46,323 nucleotides of DNA from a bacterium (GCA_021159185.1 JAGGSH010000014.1:1-46323), one strand, 5' to 3'. Counted from the first letter of the stretch, positions 12,271 to 44,160 are shown. Numbers and translations: made by a program. The notes: a model not told the origin generated them from the sequence alone.

Positions 12271-13473
12271 TTATTCATTAAATATATTCTCAAACATCTC
12301 CTTAATCCTATCATAATTATCCCCCCTTGGAAGCAGAATATACCCTTGTTCCGGCGAAGTTATTTCCGGGGAATAAAGCAATCCTTCCTCGGAATTCTCC
12401 AGAACTTTTTGGTAAATTTTTACTTCTCCCATTGCCTGATATATTTCAAACATTCTTTTCATTTCCCAAAGCTGCATATCGGTTCTGACATTATCACCCA
12501 AACTATTCAACATAGCGTTTATTTTTCCGAAGTTGGCCAGCACTCCCAGACTTAAAGATTTTTCTTTTATTTTTTGCAGGACTTTCTGTTGCCTTCTGGC
12601 TCGGTCAAAATCGCTGGAAGTTACTCGGGAACGGACATAGCAAAGGGCTTTTTCCCCGTCCAAAGTAATATCGCCCGCCGGAAGTTCAAAAATTCCTCCG
12701 CATTCCAAATCCTTGTTGTAGCACAAAGGATATTTAGCTACCACCTTTCCCTTTTTATTTTTCTTCTCTTCAAAATTTCCCGAAGGAACGGTATAGACAT
12801 TTTCATCGCAAACATGCTCTTCATGGAACTGCAAAGGCTCTATGAAAGGCTTATCCAAATGCAATTCAACTCCGCCTAAATGGTCTATCAATTCAGTAAA
12901 CCCTTTGAAATTTATGCTGGCGGAATAATGGATTGGCATCCCCGCGATCTCGCTTACAATCGTTTTCATATCTTCCAATCCCTGCTCTTTTTTCTTTTGC
13001 TCGCCGTAATAGTAAACGGCGTTTATTTTTTGCCGGGAATCGGTTTCCGGAACAGTCACATACAAATCGCGCGGAATGGAAACAAGAGCAACTTTATTTT
13101 CCGCCGGTTTAACGCTGGCAACCATTATGGTATCCGCCAAAAGCCCGCCGCCCGGAACGTTTTCTCCGCGCATACCCAAAAGCAAAATGTTAATTCTCCC
13201 TTCGCTTTCCCCTCTTATTTCATTTTTCATCCCCGGAATAATATGAGTCAGATTGCTGAAAATATTTCCCCGCGTGGAAACCTTGTTTAAAATATGCCCC
13301 GTTTTCCACGCGGAAATTCCGCCCGCTAAAATCAAGAGTGAAGCTAAAAATAGAAGCGTTTTTTTCCATCCTTGAATTTTACCGGACTTTTTGCTTCCGT
13401 CTTTCGGATTATAATTATACGAGAAATCAGCTTCTAGAGCGCTTCCTTTATTTCTTTTTCCAAAAAATTCCAT
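12271..13473 (-). CDS. LytR-CpsA-Psr (LCP) family phosphotransferase
   Basis: A 400-residue membrane-anchored LCP protein, which attaches polyprenyl-phosphate-linked glycans to peptidoglycan or other acceptors. One TM helix after a basic cytoplasmic start (about residues 35-52, TLLFLASLLILAGGISAW). The LCP domain runs from GRINILLLGMRGENVPGG through LADTIMVASVKP, VALVSIPRDLYV, KINAVYYYG, FTELIDHLGGVEL and LDGEKALCYVRSR to DFDRARRQQKVL. The Arg and Asp residues in SIPRD, the RSR and DxxR motifs are the family's phosphate-binding set. It sits within a polysaccharide gene run (GT2, GT4, Wzy-like), consistent with the last ligation step. Confidence 0.92.
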   Translation of the reverse strand: MEFFGKRNKGSALEADFSYNYNPKDGSKKSGKIQGWKKTLLFLASLLILAGGISAWKTGHILNKVSTRGNIFSNLTHIIPGMKNEIRGESEGRINILLLGMRGENVPGGGLLADTIMVASVKPAENKVALVSIPRDLYVTVPETDSRQKINAVYYYGEQKKKEQGLEDMKTIVSEIAGMPIHYSASINFKGFTELIDHLGGVELHLDKPFIEPLQFHEEHVCDENVYTVPSGNFEEKKNKKGKVVAKYPLCYNKDLECGGIFELPAGDITLDGEKALCYVRSRVTSSDFDRARRQQKVLQKIKEKSLSLGVLANFGKINAMLNSLGDNVRTDMQLWEMKRMFEIYQAMGEVKIYQKVLENSEEGLLYSPEITSPEQGYILLPRGDNYDRIKEMFENIFNE

Positions 13474-13505
13474 CGTTTTTTCGCTTATTTTTTACGCATC
13501 CTCCT

Positions 13506-14840
13506 TTATTCCCTTCTTTCATCCAGCAAATTATAAATTTCCAACATCCTTTTCGCCGATTTTTCCCAAGAAAAAAATTTAACTCTGGATTGCCCCAGAT
13601 TTATTAATTTTCTCCTTAAGTTTTCATCTACACAAGCAGTATATAACTTTTCCGCTATTTCATCAAGGTCGCGGGGATTGAATTTCGCGTAAGCGTTTCC
13701 GCCGACTTCTTCCAGGCTGGGAATATCCGATGCCGCCACTGGAACGTTTTGGCTCATGGCTTCCAAAATAGGAATGCCAAAACCCTCGTAAAGCGAAGGA
13801 AAAACAAACAGCCGCGCGCCAGCGATAATGTCCATTTTATCCTCCTCGTCAATAAAACCGGGAAAAATAATATCAGCTTGTAGCTTGTAGCTTGTAGCTT
13901 GTAGCTTTTTATCCATATTATGCGCATCCCTATTTCCCGCCACCACCAACTTTATCCCGGGAATTTTATTCTTTATTTTCGCATACGCCTTAATTAGCAT
14001 CGGAATATTTTTTCTCGGCTGCAAAGTGCCGAGATATAAAATATATTTTTCCGGGAGATTGTATTTTTTCCTAATTTCCAATTTCTTGGACAAAGGCTGA
14101 CCAGCTTCTGGCTGACAATTTCCAATTTCCAATAATTTTTTAATACCAAATTTTTTAAATTTGTTTTGCAATTTGTGATTTGAATTTTGAATTTGTTTGG
14201 GATTTGGGATTTGGGATTTGGGATTTCCAAAACTCACTGCATTGTAAACTACCTCCACCTTTTCTCTTAATTCCCTTTTTTTGCAAAGGAGCATAAAGAG
14301 AGATCTGGAATAATATTTTATTATTTCATTTTTAGTGAATTTTGACACGGCGATTATTTTATCCGCGCGCCGAATGCTTATTGGAATTAAAACGCTTAAA
14401 AACAGCAAGTCGCTCCATTTGATAAACCGCTTATAAACCTTAAAAGAAACATCGTGAATGTGGGTAATAATTTTTATTTTACGCGAAACAAAAAACGGCG
14501 TAATGTATTGCGTATGGTAAACATCCACCGGATGCTTCCGCAAATACCTTGGCAATGCCCATAAATTCCAGATAAACTTATTTTTAGATTTCAAGGAAAC
14601 AATCTCAAAATCCTTCCTGTCTTCAATTCTCAAGTCCTTCTTTATATCTTTTAAAATTTCTCCATCTGTTATATCAGTAAAAAGTAAAAATTTGCAATTA
14701 TATCTCCTTTCGCGTTTTATGTTACGCGTTATGCGTTCCAAGTTTTTCACTAGCTCAAAAAACACCACTTCATCGCCGGTTCTTTTTTTGCCGATATTGC
14801 GTATATCAATGCCAACTTTAAAATTGTTAAATTGTTTCAT
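13506..14840 (-). CDS. Family 4 glycosyltransferase (GT-B)
   Basis: A 444-residue retaining glycosyltransferase of the GT4 (mannosyltransferase B-like) group. N-terminal GIDIRNIGKKRTGDEVVFFELVKN, HIHDVSFKVYKRFIKWSD, DKIIAVSKFTKNEIIKYY; C-terminal YILYLGTLQPRKNIPMLIKAYAKI, IIFPGFIDEEDKM, FVFPSLYEGFGIPILEAMSQNVPVAASDIPSLEEVGG, including the E-x7-E motif. The linker carries two heptamer arrays (13875 and 14199) that encode KLQATSYKLQA and PKSQIPNPK, peptide stretches without family counterparts. Starts 14 nt before the end of the polymerase-like gene, inside a 16-bp tandem duplication (TTAAATTGTTTCATTG twice), so the pair is translationally coupled. Confidence 0.9.
   Translation of the reverse strand: MKQFNNFKVGIDIRNIGKKRTGDEVVFFELVKNLERITRNIKRERRYNCKFLLFTDITDGEILKDIKKDLRIEDRKDFEIVSLKSKNKFIWNLWALPRYLRKHPVDVYHTQYITPFFVSRKIKIITHIHDVSFKVYKRFIKWSDLLFLSVLIPISIRRADKIIAVSKFTKNEIIKYYSRSLFMLLCKKRELREKVEVVYNAVSFGNPKSQIPNPKQIQNSNHKLQNKFKKFGIKKLLEIGNCQPEAGQPLSKKLEIRKKYNLPEKYILYLGTLQPRKNIPMLIKAYAKIKNKIPGIKLVVAGNRDAHNMDKKLQATSYKLQADIIFPGFIDEEDKMDIIAGARLFVFPSLYEGFGIPILEAMSQNVPVAASDIPSLEEVGGNAYAKFNPRDLDEIAEKLYTACVDENLRRKLINLGQSRVKFFSWEKSAKRMLEIYNLLDERRE
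13875..13907. repeat. Heptamer array AGCTTGT x4 within the GT4 coding sequence
   Basis: Four perfect AGCTTGT units and a five-base remainder. In-frame translation is KLQATSYKLQA. It falls between the two Rossmann domains' conserved blocks (after VVAGNRDAH). Confidence 0.9.
14199..14229. repeat. Heptamer array GGGATTT x4 within the GT4 coding sequence
   Basis: Four perfect GGGATTT units (14199-14226) with a short remainder; encodes SFGNPKSQIPNPKQIQ in frame. Neighbouring ATTTGAATTTT stretches on its left look like further degenerate units. Confidence 0.9.
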
Positions 14841-16569
14841 TGTTAAATTGTTTCATTTGCGCAATTCCCAACCACACCCACAAAAATCCCAGCATGATTC
14901 CGGCGTTGAATAAATTGGGAATGAGAATAGCGAAAAAGGAAAGGAGCAAAAATAAATTAAAATTCGTAATTCGTAATTCGTAATTCGTAATTCCTTTTTG
15001 AAGATAATAAATACTTCTAATCAATATATTGAGCAATATAAAAATAAAGGACGCCAATCCCAACACTCCTGCTCCCAGCCAAACTTCAAGGAATATATTA
15101 CTGGAATTTAATCCCGCGCCTCTCTCGTCCATCCCTAAAATTTCTGAAATATTCCCCCAGCCAATCCCCCTGACGGGGCGCTTTTTAATTTCTCCCCAGG
15201 ATTTCCGGTAAATTTCCGAGCGAGCGTTAACATTGGGATCATCGCGATAGATTTCCGCTACCGCATTCCCCGCCGCTTTTTCTTTTTCTATTTCTTCAAG
15301 ATTTATATGCCAACAAGAAAAATGTTCTAGCTGTTCTAAATGTTCTATTTGCTGAAGCTGTTGCAATTCTTTCGCCTGCTGTTTGTCCGCGCAAGCCACG
15401 GTAATTTTCTGCAGCCCTGATCCGGCGCTCTGCAAGCGATTTCCCAGTTCAAAGTTGGTTAAATTGAAAACCGCGACAATTCCAAGCGCGGATGCGAATG
15501 TCATTCCCGCGAAAGCGGAAATCCAGAGTAATCTGACATTTTTACTTTTCAAAAAATACATAATACATAATACATAATACATAATGCTAATCATAATCGC
15601 CCCCAGCCAAGCGGATCGGCTCACGGTTAAAATAAGCAGTATGTAGCATGCGGTAAGCAATAAGCATAATAAAAAATTTGAAATTTGAAATTTGAAATTT
15701 GAAATCAATTTTAAATTAAATAATTTAGAAATTGAAAATTCATTGAAAATTGAAAATTGAAAATTGAAAATTCCAGACCTTTGATTATCTGCAAACTTAT
15801 AAGAATGAAAAAGCAAACTATAAACTATAGCTAATAAAAAAACAAGGAATGTTCCCAGCCAGTCCGCTTCCGCGAAAGTCGCGTTAGGCCGTCCAGGCAT
15901 TGTTTCAAAACTTTCTAAGCCGCTCATAAACCTCGCATTCTGCCAAATTCCATAGAGTATCACGACGGCGGACGAACTTAGAAAGAACGGCAGGATCTTT
16001 TTTATGTCATCTATATTTTGAATAAATAATCTGACTAAAAAATAAAGCGCCGCGAAAGAAAGAATAATTACGGAATATTTCAAACCCAAGCTCTTATTTG
16101 CCGCTCCCAAAACACTTACGAATCCCGCTGCGGCAAAAACAATAATGGCTTTATCCGACCAGTTCATTTTCGGCAGATTAAAATTCAATCGCTTTGAAAC
16201 CAAACGGATTAAAACCGCGATGATTGTTAACGCGCCGAGAAACTGGTAAGGGCGGACATTTATTCCCAAACTTTCCGGCGCCAAGTTTATATTTTCCAGC
16301 ATTATCGTCCCAATAAAAAACAAAAACGCCCAGCCCGGCCGATAAAGCGCGAAAATAAAAGTTACCGCCGCGAAAAAACCAAAATCTCCCCAATTTTTAA
16401 ACGGCAAAACTTCAGTATTGGAAAGCAGGATTAAAAAGAAAACCAGCAAGATGTTGGCTAGAATAAGCCACTTTCCGATCCCCTTCTCCCCTTGGGAGAG
16501 GACTGGGGCAAGAGTTTTGCCAATAAGCGGCTTCAGCCCCCTGACAATTTTTTGCAAAAACGATAGCAT
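14827..16569 (-). CDS. O-antigen ligase/polymerase-like multispanning membrane protein
   Basis: A 580-residue protein with about 11-13 hydrophobic spans and a large loop (about residues 385-480) between the later helices, the layout of the O-antigen ligase/Wzy/RfaL (PF04932-like) family that polymerises or ligates lipid-linked glycans. Family-like segments: NATFAEADWLGTFLVFLLAIVYSLL, LILTVSRSAWLGAIM, and RGIGWGNISEILGMDERGAGLNSSNIFLEVWLGAGVLG, with the AHN/NxxLEV-type loop. Extensive repeat-derived sequence is embedded: heptamer arrays at 14961, 15555, 15674 and 15742, the LLWISAFAGMT stretch from a TGTCATTCC element at 15499, and LAPVLSQGEKG near the N-terminus from another repeat. The core family motifs remain intact. 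Confidence 0.85.
   Translation of the reverse strand: MLSFLQKIVRGLKPLIGKTLAPVLSQGEKGIGKWLILANILLVFFLILLSNTEVLPFKNWGDFGFFAAVTFIFALYRPGWAFLFFIGTIMLENINLAPESLGINVRPYQFLGALTIIAVLIRLVSKRLNFNLPKMNWSDKAIIVFAAAGFVSVLGAANKSLGLKYSVIILSFAALYFLVRLFIQNIDDIKKILPFFLSSSAVVILYGIWQNARFMSGLESFETMPGRPNATFAEADWLGTFLVFLLAIVYSLLFHSYKFADNQRSGIFNFQFSIFNEFSISKLFNLKLISNFKFQISNFLLCLLLTACYILLILTVSRSAWLGAIMISIMYYVLCIMYFLKSKNVRLLWISAFAGMTFASALGIVAVFNLTNFELGNRLQSAGSGLQKITVACADKQQAKELQQLQQIEHLEQLEHFSCWHINLEEIEKEKAAGNAVAEIYRDDPNVNARSEIYRKSWGEIKKRPVRGIGWGNISEILGMDERGAGLNSSNIFLEVWLGAGVLGLASFIFILLNILIRSIYYLQKGITNYELRITNFNLFLLLSFFAILIPNLFNAGIMLGFLWVWLGIAQMKQFNNETI
14961..14993. repeat. Heptamer array AATTCGT x4 in polymerase-like gene
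   Basis: Four perfect AATTCGT units plus AATTC. Encodes GITNYELRITNFN in frame near the protein's C-terminus. Confidence 0.9.
15499..15538. mobile_element. TGTCATTCC repeat inserted in frame in the polymerase-like gene
   Basis: TGTCATTCCCGCGAAAGCGG and the following AATCCAGAGTA match the left end of the element at 24913 with one difference, then end in TGACA. It encodes LWISAFAGMT on the minus strand. Shows that the dispersed repeat can sit inside an otherwise open gene. Confidence 0.75.
15555..15585. repeat. Heptamer array AATACAT x4 in polymerase-like gene
   Basis: Four perfect AATACAT units plus AAT, encoding IMYYVLCIMYFL within a transmembrane span, so the repeat supplies hydrophobic residues. 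Confidence 0.9.
15674..15705. repeat. Heptamer array AAATTTG x4 in polymerase-like gene
   Basis: Four perfect AAATTTG units plus AAAT; encodes ISNFKFQISNF. Confidence 0.9.
15742..15772. repeat. Heptamer array ATTGAAA x4 in polymerase-like gene
   Basis: Four perfect ATTGAAA units plus ATT; encodes FNFQFSIFNEFS. Only 36 nt from the previous array. Confidence 0.9.
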
Positions 16570-16588
16570 AAGCAGTTAATCAAGTTAT

Positions 16589-16631
16589 TTGACAATTATC
16601 GCTCTGGTGTTGTTATTCTAACATCAGAGCG
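16589..16631 (+). promoter_or_regulatory. Candidate promoter with overlapping operator-like inverted repeat
   Basis: TTGACA at 16589-16594 is a consensus -35; TATTCT at 16614-16619 is a possible -10 with a long 19-nt spacer. CGCTCTGGTGTT (16600-16611) pairs with AACATCAGAGCG (16620-16631), one G-T wobble, over an 8-nt loop. The inverted repeat covers the spacer and -10, so it could be an operator or, if transcribed, a 5' leader hairpin for the small gene at 16664. Confidence 0.55.
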
Positions 16632-16663
16632 CAAAAAATTCAAAAGGGGGAAGGAGACAAAAA

Positions 16664-16909
16664 ATGAAAATCGCAGAAAGTGACAAAAAGGAATTTTTTT
16701 ATGATGAAAAAACTGGAGACATATATTCCCTTCCTAAAAGGGGGCCGCGCCCCCTCCCCTTGCCACTGGTAAGTTTAAATTTACCGGCGTCTAAAAAACT
16801 GATAAGAAAAACTTGCACTTGCACTAGTGGCTTACTTACCCTCACCCTCGTTTTTGAAAAGGTAAATGTCGTTATTAATCTTGACACAGAGGAAGTAAAT
16901 ATATCATAA
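16664..16909 (+). CDS. Small hypothetical protein with strong expression signals
   Basis: 81 residues, not recognised: acidic start (MKIAESDKKEFFYDEKTGDIYSLPKRGPRP), then TCTCTSGLLTLTLVFEKVNVVINLDTEEVNIS with alternating beta pattern. Supported as real by an excellent Shine-Dalgarno (AAGGAG, 8 nt before the ATG), a promoter-like region upstream and a perfect intrinsic terminator 22 nt after the stop, forming a complete single-gene unit. It lies between the polysaccharide genes and the TrpR-like gene, opposite in direction to both. The antisense reading frame over it lacks such signals. Confidence 0.65.
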   Translation: MKIAESDKKEFFYDEKTGDIYSLPKRGPRPLPLPLVSLNLPASKKLIRKTCTCTSGLLTLTLVFEKVNVVINLDTEEVNIS

Positions 16910-16931
16910 ACATACATACACTCTTTCTTCT

Positions 16932-16957
16932 GACGGAGAAAAATCTCCGTCTTTTTT
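16932..16957 (+). terminator. Intrinsic terminator of the small gene
   Basis: GACGGAGA (16932-16939), AAAA loop, TCTCCGTC (16944-16951), then TTTTTT. Perfect 8-bp GC-containing stem with a T run. Confidence 0.93.
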
Positions 16958-17090
16958 ATTTTATTTTTTACCAACAAAAATCCTCGTGCGTGGTGAAATT
17001 AAAAATTTTTCTTAACAGAAATGGTTAACCCTACTAAAAGTTTTTTTGTTCAAGATAGACTGGTAATTTTCAAATTTCCCTATCCCTTCT

Positions 17091-17120
17091 CTACTACAAT
17101 ATAATGTTATATTGTAGTAG
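17091..17120. promoter_or_regulatory. 30-nt palindrome, copy 1 (candidate TrpR-like operator)
   Basis: CTACTACAATATAA-TG-TTATATTGTAGTAG, perfect 14-nt arms around TG. The gap 16958-17378 contains no gene; besides three palindrome copies it holds TTGAT/TAACTT low-complexity runs around 17210-17265. Confidence 0.65.
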
Positions 17121-17174
17121 ATGAGCCTATAACTTGATTAAACCTCTTACTGCGCTATACTTGGCCGTTCTTCA

Positions 17175-17191
17175 TAACATTATATTGTAGT
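17175..17191. promoter_or_regulatory. Half copy of the palindrome
   Basis: TAACATTATATTGTAGT matches one arm and the centre of the palindrome in reverse orientation; the other arm is missing. Confidence 0.5.
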
Positions 17192-17298
17192 GAATGTCCG
17201 TAACCTGTCCTAACTTGATTTGATTTGATTTGATTTAACCTAACTTAATTTAACTTGATTTGATTAAGCTTCCTACTATAATAAACTGTTTTTTTCTC

Positions 17299-17326
17299 TA
17301 TTACAATATAATGTTATATTGTAATA
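17299..17326. promoter_or_regulatory. 28-nt palindrome, copy 3
   Basis: TATTACAATATAA-TG-TTATATTGTAATA; 13-nt perfect arms. The outer bases differ from copy 1 but change on both arms together (C to T with G to A). Confidence 0.65.
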
Positions 17327-17378
17327 AAGAACCGTTGCTTGATTCAGCTTATTTTTTGCTTCTTACAAACTTCACTTT

Positions 17379-17795
17379 TTATAAGCCAAGTATGTCTTTT
17401 AAAATCCGATGTCCCGGATATCTGTCAAGTATGCTATCGTAATACCTACCCTCTTCGCTTTCTTTTTTATTTCTTCGCGACTTTCTTTTCATATGGTTCT
17501 GAATCTGTTCATGAAAATGCTCATTTTTTCCGTAGAGCCACCTAGCAATGTTCGTAATTGTTGAGTGTCCAACGCCTAATTCTTCGCGAATACTCTCATA
17601 ACTCTTTTTACTTAAAATCATTTGCGCAATTTGGATTCGCCGAGCAAGCATCAACGCTTCACTGGATGTGAGAAGTCCCATAAAAAAACCGACTACCTCA
17701 TTTTTTGATTTCAAATGCGTTACGATATCATAAAAATCTCCAATCATGCGATAGCGCGTGTTTTTATCAACTTTTTGAGTTTGTACTTTTGCCAT
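17379..17795 (-). CDS. TrpR/YerC-YecD-family DNA-binding regulator
   Basis: 138 residues, resembling the Trp repressor superfamily YerC/YecD group: residues about 20-100 hold the all-helical core (FYDIVTHLKSKNEVVGFFMGLLTSSEALMLARRIQIAQMIL) and helix-turn-helix SYESIREELGVGHSTITNIARWL, where GVGxxTITxxxxxL is the recognition-helix signature. The C-terminal 40 residues are basic. Probably a repressor. Palindromes lie 70-90 nt upstream of its start (17864-17885) and downstream (17091-17326), so autoregulation is likely. The ligand is unknown; YerC proteins do not necessarily bind tryptophan, and there are no trp genes here. Confidence 0.85.
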   Translation of the reverse strand: MAKVQTQKVDKNTRYRMIGDFYDIVTHLKSKNEVVGFFMGLLTSSEALMLARRIQIAQMILSKKSYESIREELGVGHSTITNIARWLYGKNEHFHEQIQNHMKRKSRRNKKESEEGRYYDSILDRYPGHRILKDILGL

Positions 17796-17863
17796 AGAAA
17801 TTCTTATTTTATTTATTTTATTATCCGACCTTTATTTACATACTATCACAAATCAAACCGTAC

Positions 17864-17885
17864 TACAATATAATGTTATATTGTA
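17864..17885. promoter_or_regulatory. 22-nt palindrome upstream of the TrpR-like gene
   Basis: TACAATATAA-TG-TTATATTGTA, extended on one side by TAC. It lies about 70 nt before the regulator's ATG and includes the TAA stop of the glycosyltransferase gene. Best candidate autoregulatory operator. Confidence 0.65.
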
Positions 17886-19150
17886 ACGAGTGGCGTAATC
17901 TTCTTCGTAAATTTGCTCCATGAAAACTTTTCGGCTTGCTTTTTGCCTTTCGTAGAAAGTTTGTTTCGCAAATTATTATCATTCAAGACTTTTTTCATTT
18001 TTTCAGCCAACTCTTTTTCATCTTTTGGATTGAAATATTCCACCGCTTCCCCGCCCACTTCCGGCAATGACGAAGCGTTGGAACAAATCACCGCCGTTCC
18101 GCAATTCATGGCTTCCAAAACCGGCAAGCCGAATCCTTCATACAACGACGGATAAACGAATATGCCGGCGTTTTTGTAAAGCGCCGGCAAATCTTCCCGC
18201 GGAACAAAATCCAGTAATTTGACTTTATCCTGTAATCCTAAATCCTTAACCAATTTTTCCGTGTCCGTAACCAACGGCGCCAATTTCGGCATTAGTTTTC
18301 CGGAAATAACTAGGTCGGGAATTTTGAATTTTGAATTTTGAATTTTGAATGAATTTTTAATGTTTATTTTTGAATTATTAATTTCTTTTTTTTCATTAGA
18401 AATTTGGTCATTGATATTTGAATCGAAATTCGAAATTCGAAATTCGAAATTCTTCAATAACAGTTTATACGCTTTCAACAACCTTGCCGCATTTTTTCTT
18501 TTTTCCAGTCCCCCGCCGAAATAAATATAGCCTTTTTTCAAATTATATTTTTTCAAAACTCGTTTGCTTTCATCTTCGCTAATTTCTTTTTTGTAAATCG
18601 GATCGACATCAACATAATTTACGCTTATTTTTTTCGGCGCAATATTTAAATATTGCGTTAAATCTTTTTTGGTATGCTCCGAAATAGAGATAATTTTATC
18701 TGCTTTTTTAATAGCTCTCTTGGTTAAATTCCAATATATTTTTTTTCGCCAATTATTCAGATATTCCGGAAAAATCTCCGGAATAATATCATGCGCAATC
18801 ATAATATGCTTTACTACCATATTACGTAATATGGTAGTATTTTGATATAAGCTGATAAACGCTTCGCAACCGTCTTCTTTAACTTTTTTAGGAAGCAAAA
18901 ATTTTTCCCACCAAATTTTGCGGATAAGATCATCCCGCTTCCACAACGGCAAAAATACTCGTTTCTTAAAATTGCTCGGCAAATCCAAGCTAATATCCTC
19001 CTCTAAATATAAAACGAACTCAATATCTTGCTTGATACTTAATACATTATACTTGCTGCTTTCCTTCAACTTTTGCAAAAAGTTGAAGGAAACTTGCCCT
19101 ATTCCCGTATTCGGTTTCCTAATAAAAGACGCGTTTATTCCAATTCTCAT
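17876..19150 (-). CDS. Family 4 glycosyltransferase (GT-B)
   Basis: 424 residues, GT4 family like the enzyme at 13506. Starts MRIGINASFIRKPNTGIGQVSFNFLQKLK; HIMIAHDIIPEIFPEY; KIISISEHTKKDLTQYLN; YIYFGGGLEKRKNAARLLKAYKLLL; LLDFVPREDLPALYKNAGIFVYPSLYEGFGLPVLEAMNCGTAVICSNASSLPEVGGEA, with the E-x7-E donor site. Heptamer arrays at 18319 and 18424 encode KIQNSKFKIPD and NFEFRISNFDS in the inter-domain linker, and a 28-nt palindrome at 18812 encodes TTILRNMVV before KHIMIAHD. The gene ends inside an operator-like palindrome and is 82 nt from the regulator, so repression could affect read-through of both. Confidence 0.9.
   Translation of the reverse strand: MRIGINASFIRKPNTGIGQVSFNFLQKLKESSKYNVLSIKQDIEFVLYLEEDISLDLPSNFKKRVFLPLWKRDDLIRKIWWEKFLLPKKVKEDGCEAFISLYQNTTILRNMVVKHIMIAHDIIPEIFPEYLNNWRKKIYWNLTKRAIKKADKIISISEHTKKDLTQYLNIAPKKISVNYVDVDPIYKKEISEDESKRVLKKYNLKKGYIYFGGGLEKRKNAARLLKAYKLLLKNFEFRISNFDSNINDQISNEKKEINNSKINIKNSFKIQNSKFKIPDLVISGKLMPKLAPLVTDTEKLVKDLGLQDKVKLLDFVPREDLPALYKNAGIFVYPSLYEGFGLPVLEAMNCGTAVICSNASSLPEVGGEAVEYFNPKDEKELAEKMKKVLNDNNLRNKLSTKGKKQAEKFSWSKFTKKITPLVTI
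18319..18350. repeat. Heptamer array GAATTTT x4 in the second GT4 gene
   Basis: Four perfect GAATTTT units plus GAAT; in-frame KIQNSKFKI. Confidence 0.9.
18424..18451. repeat. Heptamer array CGAAATT x4 in the second GT4 gene
   Basis: Four perfect CGAAATT units plus one base; encodes NFEFRISNF. 73 nt from the GAATTTT array. Confidence 0.9.
18812..18839. repeat. 28-nt perfect palindrome inside the GT4 gene
   Basis: TACTACCATATTAC followed by its exact complement GTAATATGGTAGTA. Same length as, and 23/28 identical to, the palindromes around the TrpR-like gene, with the differences paired across the dyad. Confidence 0.8.
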
Positions 19151-19156
19151 AATTTT

Positions 19157-20254
19157 CTACCCCATCCCTAAAATTCCAATTATCACTCCTATGATGGAGG
19201 TAATGATGGTAAAAATCCAAGCGCGCATAGTGATTTTAGGTTCCGGCCATCCGATCGCCTCAAAATGGTGGTGAAGCGGAGCGGCCAAGAATACTTTTCT
19301 CTTAAAAAACCTTTTGCTGAAAAGCTGAATGGCTACGCTGGAAGACTCCATAACATAAACGAAAACGATAATGAATAAAACTAAAGCGGAATTGGTAAGC
19401 ATAGCGATTATCCCCAAAGTGGCGCCTAAAGACATCGCTCCGGTATCTCCCATAAAAAATCGGGCGGGATAGATATTAAACCAAAGAAACGCTAAAAGCG
19501 CTCCGGAAACAGCGGCGCAAAAAGAAGCCAGATCAACTTTATTTTGCAGAAAAGCGATAATCGTAAAAGAAGAAAACGCCATAAACAACATCCCTCCGTT
19601 TAGGCCGTCCAGTCCGTCCGTCTCATTGGAAGAAATCGCCGTAAAAAGAATAACAAAAATAAAGAGAGGAATATACCAGAACCCGATGGAAAAATCGCCC
19701 ACGGCTGGAATATGCAACTGGTCCCATCCCAGTTTGTAAAAAAACCACCAGCTTCCCAAAGCCGCGATAGCCAACAGCCACCAAAACCTCATAGCAAACC
19801 TCATTCCCCCGCCTTTATTTTTTCCCCAGCCGCGAACGCTCATAACATCGTCAAAAAGCCCTAAAATTCCTGAAGCGGTTAAAACAAAAAGCGGCAGCCA
19901 CACTTGGGAACGGCTTAAAAAATCCAGCCGGGCGATAAAATCGGTATTAAACCATTCGGCGACAGCAGGAAAAATATAATGCGACGCAAAAACTAAAATT
20001 AAAATGGAGAACCATATTATTGCTCCGCCCATCGTTGGCGTTCCAGATTTTTTAGCGTGGAGTTTATTTATATAAGTTAATTTTTGGCCGTCAACCGATC
20101 GGCTCTTTATTTTAATTCCGAATTTGTATTTATATAAAATATGCGTCCAAAAAGGAGTAATTAAAAAAGCCAGCAAAAAAGCCAGCGCTCCCGTCGTTAA
20201 AACTTTAAGCACGTTAACTATTTCAGGAATAGTTTGTATTTGCGCGATATGCAT
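19157..20254 (-). CDS. mraY: Phospho-N-acetylmuramoyl-pentapeptide-transferase
   Basis: Makes lipid I by moving phospho-MurNAc-pentapeptide from UDP to undecaprenyl phosphate, in the cytoplasmic membrane. Starting at the ATG at 20254 gives 365 residues, the usual MraY length, beginning MHIAQIQTIPEIVNVLK; a start at 20332 would run through the inverted-repeat arm. Landmarks: KKSGTPTMGGAIIW, GLFDDVMSVRG (acidic DD), SSNETDGLDGLNGGM (usually NLTDGLDGLA), FMGDTGAMSLGA and APLHHHFEAIGWPEPK. About ten TM helices. Lies outside a dcw cluster, 7 nt downstream of nothing essential and just upstream of the GT4 gene, which starts 7 nt after its stop on the same strand, so they may be cotranscribed. Confidence 0.93.
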   Translation of the reverse strand: MHIAQIQTIPEIVNVLKVLTTGALAFLLAFLITPFWTHILYKYKFGIKIKSRSVDGQKLTYINKLHAKKSGTPTMGGAIIWFSILILVFASHYIFPAVAEWFNTDFIARLDFLSRSQVWLPLFVLTASGILGLFDDVMSVRGWGKNKGGGMRFAMRFWWLLAIAALGSWWFFYKLGWDQLHIPAVGDFSIGFWYIPLFIFVILFTAISSNETDGLDGLNGGMLFMAFSSFTIIAFLQNKVDLASFCAAVSGALLAFLWFNIYPARFFMGDTGAMSLGATLGIIAMLTNSALVLFIIVFVYVMESSSVAIQLFSKRFFKRKVFLAAPLHHHFEAIGWPEPKITMRAWIFTIITSIIGVIIGILGMG

Positions 20255-37205: not shown

Positions 37206-40200
37206 TTAGGCTGAAATTTGTTTTTGCGTGAATTTATCCCATTCCTCTTGCGTTATAATTAGGTCTTGATTCTGCATCATGCTCAAATCTTTATACTTAT
37301 TTTTGAATTGAGATATTTTTTCTATAACAAGTCCGCCTTTTCTTGCAATATTATACGCGCCATTGGCATCACCATTAAATTCTAATTTGCCTTTACCTTT
37401 ATATTTTTTATCCAAACTTTTTAAATTTTCTTCCGAATGAAAATGACAAGCAGGGCATTGAATAAAATCTCTATTTTCTTTTTCTGAACTGATTGCGTTA
37501 CGCAATTGTAAAATCAATCTAATCTGCCAAATTAATGGATCATAAAAATTCTTATTTTCAAAATTTCCATTTTTAATTTGCTCGTTTATATTTTTAGCGA
37601 CATTAATGTTATTATTTTCAAAAATTTTTAGCAATTCATCATTTGGATATCGCTTGTGTGTTTTCCTATCTTTCCGTGAGTATTGCAATCGTTCGACATT
37701 AGAATAAAATATAAAATCATCTCTCAAAACCATATTTTCAAACAATCGAAAACCATTACTCTTTTTAGTTTTTTTATCTATCTTTTCATTATTAACACTG
37801 CGACGTTTATATTTAAAGCAAAATCTGTTTTTGTTCTCCTCGTACGAAATATTAAATTGCTCAACAAATTTTTTATTCTTTTCTTTTGTTTCTGTTGGTG
37901 TTTGAATATTCTTGCGAAATCCGCACACTGGACAAATTGCCGATGTATAACTTGCTGGGATATAAAACATAAACCCGCACTGTTTATAGATATCTTGAAA
38001 ATTATCAATTTTTGGTGTAAGTTGATACGCCTTTGTGTGATGACCTTGTTCGTTTTCTTTTTTATCTTTCAAAACAAAATAATTAAGCTTCTTTGCTAAT
38101 GCTAATTCTAAGTTTTGATACACTTGTTTTTCAATTGCAAATCGTCCACGTTTAAATCCCACATTCAAATCTTCAAAAACAACAATTGCATCATATTTAA
38201 TCATCAAGTCGCAAATCTTTTTTACAACTTGAGACACGTAACCCTTTTTCATATCTTTGATTCTACCAATTGACTGCCAAGATTTTCTTTGCGCGTCCCT
38301 TTCTTTTTCAAGTTTATCCAACACCTTATGATAATCTGTACCGTTGATAGTATTAAAAGAATCCATCTCCAAAATATTTCCGTTACAATCCACAATAGAA
38401 TAATATGCCAAATGTTTTTCTCCACGATCAATTCCAATAACATTTATCCCAGAACCACTATTGAGGTGTTCTCGGATATTTATATTATAATTTTTTATGT
38501 GTGCTTTCTTATTTCTTTCACTAACTTTTTCTTTTCCAAAATTCAAAGTTATTGGACAATGAAATAAAACTTTATTCTCTGTATAGCGTTTATTCTTTAT
38601 AATTTCGTGTGCATTATCTTTTTTTGTACGCAACTCTTTTTCTTTTTTTAAAGACGCTTTGCGAAAAAATATCTCCGCTTGACCGTTAAGTTTAAATACT
38701 GGATTCTCTCTGTTTTTCTCAGAAAAAATTTCTTCCCAGTATAATGTATGCAATTTTTTCTTTCCGTCAGCTTTTTGCGCAAAATCTTTATTGTAGATTT
38801 CGAAAAGATATAACTTTTTTATATCATTACCAATTTCAAATTCTCCTTGTTGAAGATAAGAAGCGTCAACTTTTACAAGTGAGATACTATACAGATTCAA
38901 TTTCGAAATATCCGTAGCAATATTTTTTGGATCAGAATATCCATTTTTAACAATTTTATCGATAATAACCTGTAATTGCGGAAAAGATTCAACTCGTTTT
39001 TTTAAAAGTAGACCAATGCGATTCATTAATTCCTTGTCTGATAAATCCAATTTGTCATCAGAATATTTTGTACCAAATTGTCCACCGTACAAAGAGCCAT
39101 AAATAGTTTTTCCATCTAATTGTTTATAAACCATTTTTTCATACACATCGTTTTTAGATCTATATATTTTTGGATAACGGTTTTTATCCAAGATTCTAGT
39201 GTAATCTGTAATCCCAAGAAAATATTTATTATCCTTTTTAAAAATAAAACTCTTATATTGTGTATTACCTTCTGGACTATCAGGCCATCCTCCTAGTAAA
39301 TTTCCATTTTCAAAATTCAATTTGATTTTATCTTCACTGTACGGTTTTTTTGTTAGATAATTTCTAAATTCATTAAAATACTTCCATGTATCAACATTAT
39401 TATAATACTCTCCAAATATATTATAAAAATTCGTATCTTCTTCTAATCCCATTGGATTCCAGTGGCGATCCCTGCCACTTTCCAAAGAAAAATATTTCAT
39501 CATTTGATAAAGCGATAACGATGCATCTGCATATAACTTAATAGTTTCTTTCTGCGCCTCATATTTTATTTTACCGCCATTTTCATTTTTTATATATTTA
39601 CCTTTATCATTTTTTCTGAAATCTTTTTTGTTTGTATATCTTTTATCAGCTTTGATTATTGTGTAAACAGATTCTAATCCCTTTTTGTAATTCTCTATAT
39701 TTTCTTCAAATTCTTTTTTCCAAATTTTTAAGAAAATTTTATAATAGTCATCTTCCAATTCATAAATATCTTTATACTTTTTATCAAAAAAATCCTGCTT
39801 TTTTATTTCAACGCTTTGCAATTTATCTTTAAGTATTTGCAATGACACAAATTCATCAAACTTCTTTTTGCCTTTTTCTATAAATATACTGCGAATCGTG
39901 TTCCAGTCCGCAAAATATTTATTGGATATTGTGTTAATAAATCGTCCTGCAACATAAATTTTTTCTATTTCAAAATCATCACTTGGCTCTAACTGACTTT
40001 TGATAAATTTTTCAAATAATTTCTTTGCTTTTGGCAGTTGTTTTTCATTTTCATCAATAAAATCTTGCAGCACAGTAAAAACTTCATCATCGGTTGTAAT
40101 TTCAATAAAATCTGATTGTTCTGTTTCCTTTTTATTTTCTTCGCCAAGAATTTGCTTAAACAAGGTTTTGAAAAACGGAAAATCATTTTTGTTGTCTGCT

Positions 40201-41072
40201 TTTTGTCTTTTTTCGTTGATTTTAGATTTTAAACCCGCAATAACATCATTATATTTTTCAATTTGCTCTTGAGACAGGCATTGTTGAAAATACTCCAATG
40301 TAAAAATACTTCTTTCATTGGCATTGAAAAAACTATCATGTTTTTTAAAATATTTTCCCTCAAAAAGTTTTTTATTTTCCAAAAATTTTGGCAGATTTTC
40401 ATTAACAATCCGTGTTGGAATGGCAGTTGAAGTCCCGTCATCTTTATAAAAATTTTGTCGTGTTTGATGAAACCCCGTGAAATATGTGCTAAATTTATTA
40501 AAACTATCAAAAATACTTTTTTTATCTATTACGGCTTCAGGATATTTCTTTTTTAGAAATTCAAAAACCTCTACTTTAAACAATAATTCTAATTTCTTTA
40601 GTTTTTTAACTTTTTTTCGTAATTTCTCATCTGTAATATTTTTTACATAATTATCTCGCCAAAGCTCTGCTGTCTTTTCAAATTGCGAAACAACTTCATT
40701 GCGAATATCTTTTGAAAGTTTATTCAACACATTCCAATTCGTTGTCTTGTTATTTTTATAATTAAAATATGCCTGTTCGTACTCTTGTAGTAATCCTATA
40801 CTTATTTTTGCGTCATTTAAAGTATTATCAATAAATTCTCTATGTAACTTATCAAACCACTTTTTTGTCTTTTTATAATTTCTTGCCACTTTTTCATCCT
40901 TTTCAAAGACCTGATTTTCCTCTAACATTTTTTCTGTAATAGTTATATTTCGCACCTCTCCTGTTTTTTTATCAATATACTCAACTTTTTTTCCCGCTGG
41001 TTTCAACTCAAACCGTAAAGTTTTTGAAAATTCATACTGGTTTGTAAATTTTTTAAATATGTTTTTGTCCAT
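37206..41072 (-). CDS. cas12a: Cas12a (Cpf1), type V-A CRISPR effector nuclease, divergent
   Basis: 1288-residue single-protein effector, expected to bind crRNA, recognise a T-rich PAM and cut DNA with one RuvC site. N-terminus KKFTNQYEFSKTLRFELKPAGK is canonical WED-I. RuvC catalytic residues are all visible: D882 (VIGIDRGEKHLAYY), E967 (VVFEDLNVGFKRGRF) and D1235 (GDANGAYNIARKG); Nuc Arg is R1191 (LQLRNA); the bridge helix keeps its Trp (AQRKSWQSI). Unlike Fn, Lb and AsCas12a as I recall them: CPVCG (C1047/C1050) and CPACH (C1206/C1209) form a complete zinc ribbon; the HPAN...NPKK pre-crRNA processing loop is replaced by KKEKELRTKKDNAHEIIKNK; and the LPGxNKMLPK PAM segment reads LDGKTIYGSLYGG. 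Divergent from cas4-cas1-cas2. No frameshift; probably functional. Confidence 0.97.
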   Translation of the reverse strand: MDKNIFKKFTNQYEFSKTLRFELKPAGKKVEYIDKKTGEVRNITITEKMLEENQVFEKDEKVARNYKKTKKWFDKLHREFIDNTLNDAKISIGLLQEYEQAYFNYKNNKTTNWNVLNKLSKDIRNEVVSQFEKTAELWRDNYVKNITDEKLRKKVKKLKKLELLFKVEVFEFLKKKYPEAVIDKKSIFDSFNKFSTYFTGFHQTRQNFYKDDGTSTAIPTRIVNENLPKFLENKKLFEGKYFKKHDSFFNANERSIFTLEYFQQCLSQEQIEKYNDVIAGLKSKINEKRQKADNKNDFPFFKTLFKQILGEENKKETEQSDFIEITTDDEVFTVLQDFIDENEKQLPKAKKLFEKFIKSQLEPSDDFEIEKIYVAGRFINTISNKYFADWNTIRSIFIEKGKKKFDEFVSLQILKDKLQSVEIKKQDFFDKKYKDIYELEDDYYKIFLKIWKKEFEENIENYKKGLESVYTIIKADKRYTNKKDFRKNDKGKYIKNENGGKIKYEAQKETIKLYADASLSLYQMMKYFSLESGRDRHWNPMGLEEDTNFYNIFGEYYNNVDTWKYFNEFRNYLTKKPYSEDKIKLNFENGNLLGGWPDSPEGNTQYKSFIFKKDNKYFLGITDYTRILDKNRYPKIYRSKNDVYEKMVYKQLDGKTIYGSLYGGQFGTKYSDDKLDLSDKELMNRIGLLLKKRVESFPQLQVIIDKIVKNGYSDPKNIATDISKLNLYSISLVKVDASYLQQGEFEIGNDIKKLYLFEIYNKDFAQKADGKKKLHTLYWEEIFSEKNRENPVFKLNGQAEIFFRKASLKKEKELRTKKDNAHEIIKNKRYTENKVLFHCPITLNFGKEKVSERNKKAHIKNYNINIREHLNSGSGINVIGIDRGEKHLAYYSIVDCNGNILEMDSFNTINGTDYHKVLDKLEKERDAQRKSWQSIGRIKDMKKGYVSQVVKKICDLMIKYDAIVVFEDLNVGFKRGRFAIEKQVYQNLELALAKKLNYFVLKDKKENEQGHHTKAYQLTPKIDNFQDIYKQCGFMFYIPASYTSAICPVCGFRKNIQTPTETKEKNKKFVEQFNISYEENKNRFCFKYKRRSVNNEKIDKKTKKSNGFRLFENMVLRDDFIFYSNVERLQYSRKDRKTHKRYPNDELLKIFENNNINVAKNINEQIKNGNFENKNFYDPLIWQIRLILQLRNAISSEKENRDFIQCPACHFHSEENLKSLDKKYKGKGKLEFNGDANGAYNIARKGGLVIEKISQFKNKYKDLSMMQNQDLIITQEEWDKFTQKQISA

Positions 41073-43254: not shown

Positions 43255-44115
43255 GTCTAATACCAATACAAGATTTCTACTTTTGTAGATTCCGTTGACT
43301 TCTTTAACTAAAATATGCCGTCTAATACCAATACAAGATTTCTACTTTTGTAGATTTACTAATTTTTCTGGCGGGAATTGTAGTCTAATACCAATACAAG
43401 ATTTCTACTTTTGTAGATAGTATCTCTATTCTGTCTGGCTCGGGTCTAATACCAATACAAGATTTCTACTTTTGTAGATTTACTTATATTGACGATTTTT
43501 GCACTTTGGTCTAATACCAATACAAGATTTCTACTTTTGTAGATACGATAGCTCCTAGTATTATCATAGAGGGTCTAATACCAATACAAGATTTCTACTT
43601 TTGTAGATTGTCAAGTGTTTGCCTGTGGATAACTCTGGTCTAATACCAATACAAGATTTCTACTTTTGTAGATGAAGCGTTAGAAGGGATTAAGAATACA
43701 AGTCTAATACCAATACAAGATTTCTACTTTTGTAGATTAGCGCGGATATTTCCTTTTTCAGCTTCGTCTAATACCAATACAAGATTTCTACTTTTGTAGA
43801 TGCAGATGATTACAGCGACCACAATCCAACGTCTAATACCAATACAAGATTTCTACTTTTGTAGATACCTTACTTCAACCACTTTCACGGTGTCTAATAC
43901 CAATACAAGATTTCTACTTTTGTAGATTAATAATGACACGATGGCATCAAGACGGTCTAATACCAATACAAGATTTCTACTTTTGTAGATGAAGATAATT
44001 AAGTATCCAAGTGACTGGTCTAATACCAATACAAGATTTCTACTTTTGTAGATTAATATCTCTCTGGCTTTTGCTTTTGGTCTAATACCAATACAAGATT
44101 TCTACTTTTGTAGAT
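43255..44115 (+). CRISPR. Type V-A CRISPR array, 14 repeats, 13 spacers
   Basis: Fourteen copies of a 36-nt repeat, all identical by reading, starting GTCTAATACCAATACAAG and ending ATTTCTACTTTTGTAGAT. The 3' end folds as TCTAC-TTTT-GTAGA, the Cas12a crRNA handle. The base before ATTTC is G, giving GATTTC in place of the usual AATTTC. Repeats start at 43255, 43320, 43383, 43444, 43509, 43573, 43638, 43702, 43766, 43831, 43892, 43955, 44018 and 44080. Spacer lengths are 29, 27, 25, 29, 28, 29, 28, 28, 29, 25, 27, 27 and 26. The last repeat is not degenerate, unusual for a trailer end. No spacer matches other sequence in the window that I could find. Confidence 0.99.
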
Positions 44116-44160
44116 AAAAAAATTCAGGAGCATGACCGTTGCCATACTCCCATGAAAAAT

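Follow-up and report, generated by a model that had tools for sequence, protein, structure and literature searches.

Locus and Heptamer Arrays

The window, meaning the whole stretch of 46,323 nt that was analysed, is contig 5 of a 937 kb genome (42 contigs, 96% complete) from a lineage of the Patescibacteria (candidate phyla radiation), order Moraniibacteriota. On its minus strand are genes for two GT4-family glycosyltransferases (nt 13506-14840 and 17876-19150; Pfam Glycos_transf_1, E = 8.3e-35 and 4.7e-34) and, at nt 14827-16569, a gene for a Wzy/O-antigen-ligase-like membrane protein (Pfam Wzy_C, E = 1.8e-12). The reading frames of all three are intact, and between them they hold eight perfect heptamer arrays of 30-33 bp (4.3-4.7 units). 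Two lie in the first GT4 gene (13875-13907, 4.71 units; 14196-14226, 4.43 units), four in the Wzy_C gene (14961-14993, 4.71; 15555-15585, 4.43; 15674-15705, 4.57; 15742-15772, 4.43) and two in the second GT4 gene (18319-18350, 4.57; 18423-18452, 4.29). The first-pass annotation had placed them correctly and had described each as four units plus part of a fifth, which holds for all eight, the remainder being 2-5 nt and not 1-5 nt as given there.

Other repeats are found nearby. Several near-identical palindromes (ACAATATAACATTATATTGTA) occur at nt 17100-17340 and about 17865-17890, around a small gene of the Trp-repressor family (17379-17795), and are possibly operators of that gene or another dispersed repeat. 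The window also encodes Cas12a (Cpf1) and has a CRISPR array whose repeat is GTCTAATACCAATACAAGATTTCTACTTTTGTAGAT (nt 37206-41072 and 43255-44116).

Genome-wide counts were based on 782 kb of the genome, read as stretches. In the following, G000 is the genome of the window, G001 a relative of the same genus, and L-numbers are locus labels. Period-7 runs are abundant in the sample: 61 reach 15 or more lag matches, and 36 of the runs reach 21 or more, while three fifth-order Markov null sequences gave none at either threshold; periods of 5, 6, 8 and 9 returned 2, 3, 5 and 1 runs, respectively, with at least 15 lag matches. Relatives within the order also favour period 7, mostly at much lower density, the next highest being G004 with five runs in 140 kb. 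Heptad units are shared between different loci far more often than expected (222 pairs versus 25). A few longer heptamer arrays, of 7.9 to 8.7 units, are also present at gene ends or between genes (L010:10665-10721, L038:9565-9625 and L039:7475-7529), and the one at L038 is absent from the aligned sequence of the same genus.

Dispersed Inverted-Repeat Elements

Most of the arrays in the window are parts of larger, recurring structures. An arm with the consensus (AATTTNN)4-AATN-AATTTNN-AATG/T, designated family B, was detected 44 times in the 782 kb by nhmmer, including 11 face-to-face inverted pairs of 98-162 bp, and not at all in a shuffled/Markov null genome. A complete family-B element of 99 bp lies within the Wzy_C gene (15675..15773) and consists of two inverted arms, each of the form (AATTTNN)4, tetrad, AATTTNN, with AATTTTC as the unit of the sense arm and AATTTGA as that of the opposite arm. 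The arms face each other and were recognised at 15723-15773 (-) and 15675-15718 (+), with E-values of 5e-10 and 1.8e-5; a single element thus ends in array 15674-15705 on one side and in array 15742-15772 on the other. The second GT4 gene (17876-19150) carries another complete element, of 133 bp (18320..18452), whose arms (AATTTCG)4 and (AATTTTG)4 are each followed by the tetrad, a heptad and AATG (nhmmer, 18402-18452 (-), E = 1.7e-9; 18320-18364 (+), E = 7.2e-8); its two ends are arrays 18319-18350 and 18423-18452.

In an alignment of 27 family-B arms, the AATTT of each heptad varies little or not at all, and the last two bases are free. These two bases (NN) agree within an arm (identity 0.58) much more than between arms (0.14), and none of 5000 permutations reached the observed value. 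At the same index across the two arms of one element the agreement is only 0.09, so base pairing between the arms is not maintained. Fully uniform arms are found in genes (8 of 12) more often than between genes (1 of 15), although the coding arms were partly picked via their perfect arrays, which biases the contrast. The difference fits young copies within genes and older ones between them. Intergenic arms also have four heptads ahead of the tetrad, so the number belongs to the element itself and does not derive from the reading frame alone.

A related arm, (AAATNCN)4-AAAY-AAATNC..., defines family A, with 22 arms in the 782 kb, 13 of them in coding sequence (all 13 in the sense orientation) and nine intergenic; one match was obtained in the shuffled genome, and four inverted pairs were written out. 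The window has one such arm, on the minus strand of the first GT4 gene (14163..14226, nhmmer E = 3.4e-10), comprising (AAATCCC)4, AAAC and further AAATNNN heptads, and beginning with array 14196-14226. G001 lacks this arm, and the G000 protein is longer by 39 aa at that point. Together, these three copies of dispersed inverted-repeat elements account for five of the eight arrays.

For the other three arrays, neither a partner arm nor a fit to the arm models of families A and B was recognised. All three are minus-strand, solitary four-heptad blocks. (AAGCTAC)4.7 at 13875..13907 encodes KLQATSYKLQA and is split by a 27-bp insert in the G001 homologue; a search across the phylum found the AAGCTAC unit in one genome of 192, that of the window itself (composition control, 0). 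(GAATTAC)4.7 at 14961..14993 encodes GITNYELRITNF near the C-terminus of the Wzy protein; arrays of this unit occur in 2 of 131 genomes of the order, and the homologous region of G001 bears an HSERSKES-type insert. (ATTATGT)4.4 at 15555..15585 encodes IMYYVLCIMYF, and the segment has the same length in the array-less relatives L044 and L045, which means no net gain. We take the three blocks to be four-heptad units of the same class, or else single arms.

Genes Affected and Conservation of Reading Frame

Arrays of this kind are not confined to the polysaccharide genes of the window. They are distributed throughout the 782 kb, with similar ones in the genes for CCA-transferase-like, UvrD, RecN/SMC-like, GluRS, PriA, MurB, TsaD, TsaE, MnmA, PheT, LigA, Fpg, FemAB and Mur ligase proteins. 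The GluRS insert lies in the stretch that separates the two parts of the protein alignable with solved structures (residues 7-76 and 115-527).

This distribution bears on the suggestion, also made in the first-pass annotation, that the arrays are contingency loci at which gain or loss of one heptamer causes phase variation of the surface glycan. The loss of a unit would shift the frame, the glycan genes do hold eight arrays, and heptanucleotide phase variation is known elsewhere (HMW1A of H. influenzae and neuO of E. coli K1). However, arrays also reside in essential housekeeping genes, and all three glycan frames are intact. The orthologous arrays in MnmA (35 nt) and GluRS (29 nt) have the same length in G000 and G001 despite substitutions (about 20% divergence); nucleotide identity between these genomes is 70-85% at most loci compared. 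In 103 orthologous ORF pairs (25,806 aa), 40 indels span 4 aa or more, 13 of which lie in a strongly 7-periodic context (period 5, none; period 8, two), and reading these 40 by eye revealed no clean change in unit number. Phase variation is therefore a very improbable explanation, and the example cautions that heptamers within genes are, by themselves, poor ground for inferring it.

A bias in reading frame is nonetheless evident. For perfect arrays with three or more units, the number of units (n) equals 1 modulo 3 in 23 of 39 coding but only 4 of 25 non-coding cases (Fisher's exact test, p = 8e-4), and when mismatches are allowed the figures are 39 of 62 and 11 of 44 (p = 1.6e-4), the coding assignment resting on simple ORF calls and not on curated genes. 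Genes therefore retain frame-neutral unit numbers. The preference of intergenic elements for open frames is slight and unconvincing (0.24 versus 0.12 of the six frames). It had been reasoned that growth from one unit to four adds 21 bp and so keeps the frame. The arithmetic is right, but relatives tell a different history, since array 15555-15585 brought no gain in length and the pairs 15674/15742 and 18319/18423 are element ends. The accompanying idea of a process that produces four units, of which the in-frame ones are retained, was largely right and agrees with the coding enrichment of n = 1 modulo 3; the reason for the number is different, four being the architecture of a dispersed inverted-repeat element, which intergenic copies and other genera show as well. 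The excess of four-unit arrays in genes reflects this architecture, sharpened to some degree by frame selection.

The same protein loops contain other repeats. In the loop of the first GT4 gene that has the family-A arm, a GC-rich quasi-palindromic insert (TCAGCCAGAAGCTGGTCAGCC...) lies between ATTGGAA heptads on the minus strand (14086..14118, bounds set by eye). G001 has GC-rich palindromic inserts inside the heptad block in the genes for GT4 (27 bp), CCA-transferase (21 bp), MnmA (30 bp) and GluRS (about 20 bp). Such REP-like inserts, of about 20-30 bp and with the heptad phase kept on either side, were seen both within G000 (L019:2665-2684, L023:5585-5605, L038:8816-8843 and L041:2863-2887) and as differences between G000 and G001 (in G001 at L125, L139, L160 and L111). 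Four GC-rich palindromes are situated inside phase-preserved period-7 arrays of G000 and none in arrays of lag 5, 6, 8 or 9; a search for GC-rich hairpins flanked by long periodic runs gave no signal at the threshold used. The Wzy loops of L053 and L054 and the GT4 and Wzy ORFs of the window also include translations of other, known-looking repeats (HSERSE..., WISAFAGMT and SPRGRGG), from which it appears that GT4/Wzy genes collect several kinds of in-frame repeat.

Distribution in Related Genomes

At E ≤ 1e-5 the arm model had matches in 90 of the 124 genomes from the order. Many of these hold over 20 copies, and the copy counts are floors because only 48 candidates were scored per genome. 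In a sample of the phylum, 42 of 192 genomes matched at E ≤ 1e-6. Twelve loci of the order, one of them from G000, contained 14 complete elements with inverted paired arms, 106-151 bp in length. The exact arm pattern had no match in viral contigs.

Five of 12 Wzy homologues, from families f1, f6 and f7, have a family-B arm in roughly the same position, in the sense orientation and in codon phase 2, with 0-1 mismatches in 25 positions (shuffled expectation, 0.0). They are L044, L051, L055, L056 and the protein of the window; the arm, (AATTTNN)4-tetrad-AATTT, is located in the loop after an ADWxG motif, and the seven others lack it. Third codon positions are kept in the five arms. A shared codon phase in such distant homologues could mean old vertical inheritance or repeated insertion.

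These data bear on two further explanations. According to the first, a replication or repair error peculiar to the lineage adds three copies of any heptamer by slippage, independently at each site, after which selection on the frame retains arrays of n = 4 within genes. Solitary blocks, the specificity for period 7, the coding enrichment of n = 1 modulo 3 and homogeneity within arms are all in keeping with such a process. It leaves unexplained the sequence shared beyond the arrays, the constancy of the tetrad that follows the fourth heptad, the pairing of arms in inverted orientation and the presence of the same arm in most genomes of the order. Unit identity is also far from random, as 26 of 131 genomes of the order have AAATTTC arrays and none has arrays of the same letters reversed, and array 15555-15585 shows no net gain in length over its relatives. 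We consider independent slippage an unlikely explanation.

The second explanation is that selection maintains the elements for a function at the DNA or RNA level, as a terminator, a regulatory hairpin or an array that binds protein. The conservation of AATTT while NN varies would be expected of such a function, as would the retention of the arm in one Wzy loop in three families and in the same phase. Folding gives a mixed picture, with z-scores against shuffled sequences of -0.3, -0.3, -1.9 and -3.3; the strongest value belongs to a family-A element at L028, which folds better than its shuffles, whereas the elements of the window (about -0.3) do not. The failure of paired arms to share NN, the location of copies inside unrelated genes and the lack of any Rfam match above threshold in nt 13000-19500 of the window also speak against a selected function, which we regard as an unlikely alternative. 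Hairpin stability as the driver of the repeats was rejected, given arms without covariation and window elements that fold no better than shuffled sequence.

Origin of the Elements

Taken together, the evidence makes it probable that the arrays are mainly the termini of AT-rich, non-coding elements with inverted repeats, about 100-160 bp long and dispersed through the genome, MITE-like in general form and resembling Rickettsia palindromic elements (RPEs) when inside genes. Among the points against this are the three of eight arrays that fall outside both arm models, the variable length of the elements, the possible vertical inheritance of the arm in the Wzy homologues and, as set out below, the lack of a target-site duplication and of a Y1 transposase. 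Their best reading is as MITE/RPE-like selfish repeats that are tolerated in loops.

Judging from the sequences, copies would spread by insertion into new sites, and within genes a filter would leave those that preserve the frame, are free of stop codons and lie in tolerant loops. Perfect four-unit arrays may then be young or recently homogenised arms, intergenic arms having decayed, and slippage or conversion within a block could homogenise the units of one arm. Even spacing of the AATTT boxes makes iterated recognition by a protein their most natural role, and the heptads are most likely iterated recognition sites for a putative mobilising protein; they would not act as a copy-number switch.

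None of 21 complete elements is flanked by a target-site duplication of at least 3 nt (0.75 expected at 3 nt), a trace that age can erase. A Y1 transposase (PF01797, Y1_Tnp) was sought in G000 and G001 without a match, and a RAYT/Y1 enzyme was therefore rejected as the mobiliser. A bolder proposal is a widespread, uncatalogued class of patescibacterial mobile DNA bounded by iteron blocks, each with exactly four heptads. A dedicated enzyme that copies or recombines DNA would rewrite one block at a time, making the two free bases uniform inside an arm while leaving different arms unlike, and the elements would return to the same loops of genes, with codon phase unchanged, in different families. 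We consider this proposal unlikely.

What looked like a set of microsatellites can now be described as a dispersed element of defined structure. Most genomes of one order have it, as does about one-fifth of the phylum sample, and it is able to lengthen housekeeping proteins in organisms with genomes of about 1 Mb. The pattern is testable (AATTT every 7 bp, four times, then the tetrad) and provides a handle for finding the protein that reads or copies it.

Comparison with Known Repeat Systems

No description of heptamer or inverted repeats of this kind in Patescibacteria was found in the open-licence papers searched. Several repeat systems of other organisms share some of their features. The tandem repeats of Borgs are genome-specific, occur inside ORFs and are under strong frame selection, with in-ORF unit lengths divisible by three (PMC9879509), whereas here the unit is 7 nt and it is the number of units that keeps the frame. 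The G-rich heptamer repeats of Xanthomonas and Nostoc show a strong preference for four units that has been tied to G-quadruplexes (PMC4692102). A heptamer repeat of that type would need a G-tract of at least three in each unit; AATTTNN has none, and among the eight arrays of the window only TTTGGGA contains GGG. A four-heptamer preference thus occurs without G-tracts, and the G-quadruplex account of it cannot be general.

A formal parallel is the H4 repeat of Geobacter metallireducens, which has 49 copies, each a tandem of four heptanucleotides with the consensus GGACCGG, some located in genes and others in intergenic sequence (PMC2700814). The likeness extends to four tandem heptads, multiple copies and location both in and between genes. 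H4 is GC-rich with the one consensus unit GGACCGG, while the units here are AATTTNN or AAATNCN, and the inverted pairing of two four-heptad arms is not known to be described for H4.

Prokaryotic MITEs are short (<500 bp), AT-rich, non-coding and multicopy, with terminal inverted repeats (PMC10969869), and the elements of families A and B conform to this description. They differ in that no target-site duplication and no parent Y1 transposase were found in our data, and in that a block of homogenised iterons forms the terminal repeat. REP/RAYT systems differ likewise, as neither G000 nor G001 has a Y1 (RAYT/IS200-like) transposase.

RPEs are dispersed palindromic repeats of about 100-150 bp, found both in intergenic sequence and, in-frame, within genes for unrelated proteins (PMC10969869). 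The elements of the window are similarly placed in the Wzy and GT4 ORFs, and arms lie in the UvrD, LigA and Wzy_C genes. The present arms are distinguished by four heptads with free last two bases, by many intergenic copies and by their patescibacterial hosts. By this likeness, which is one of description and not of sequence, RPEs would be the best functional analogue of the elements reported here.
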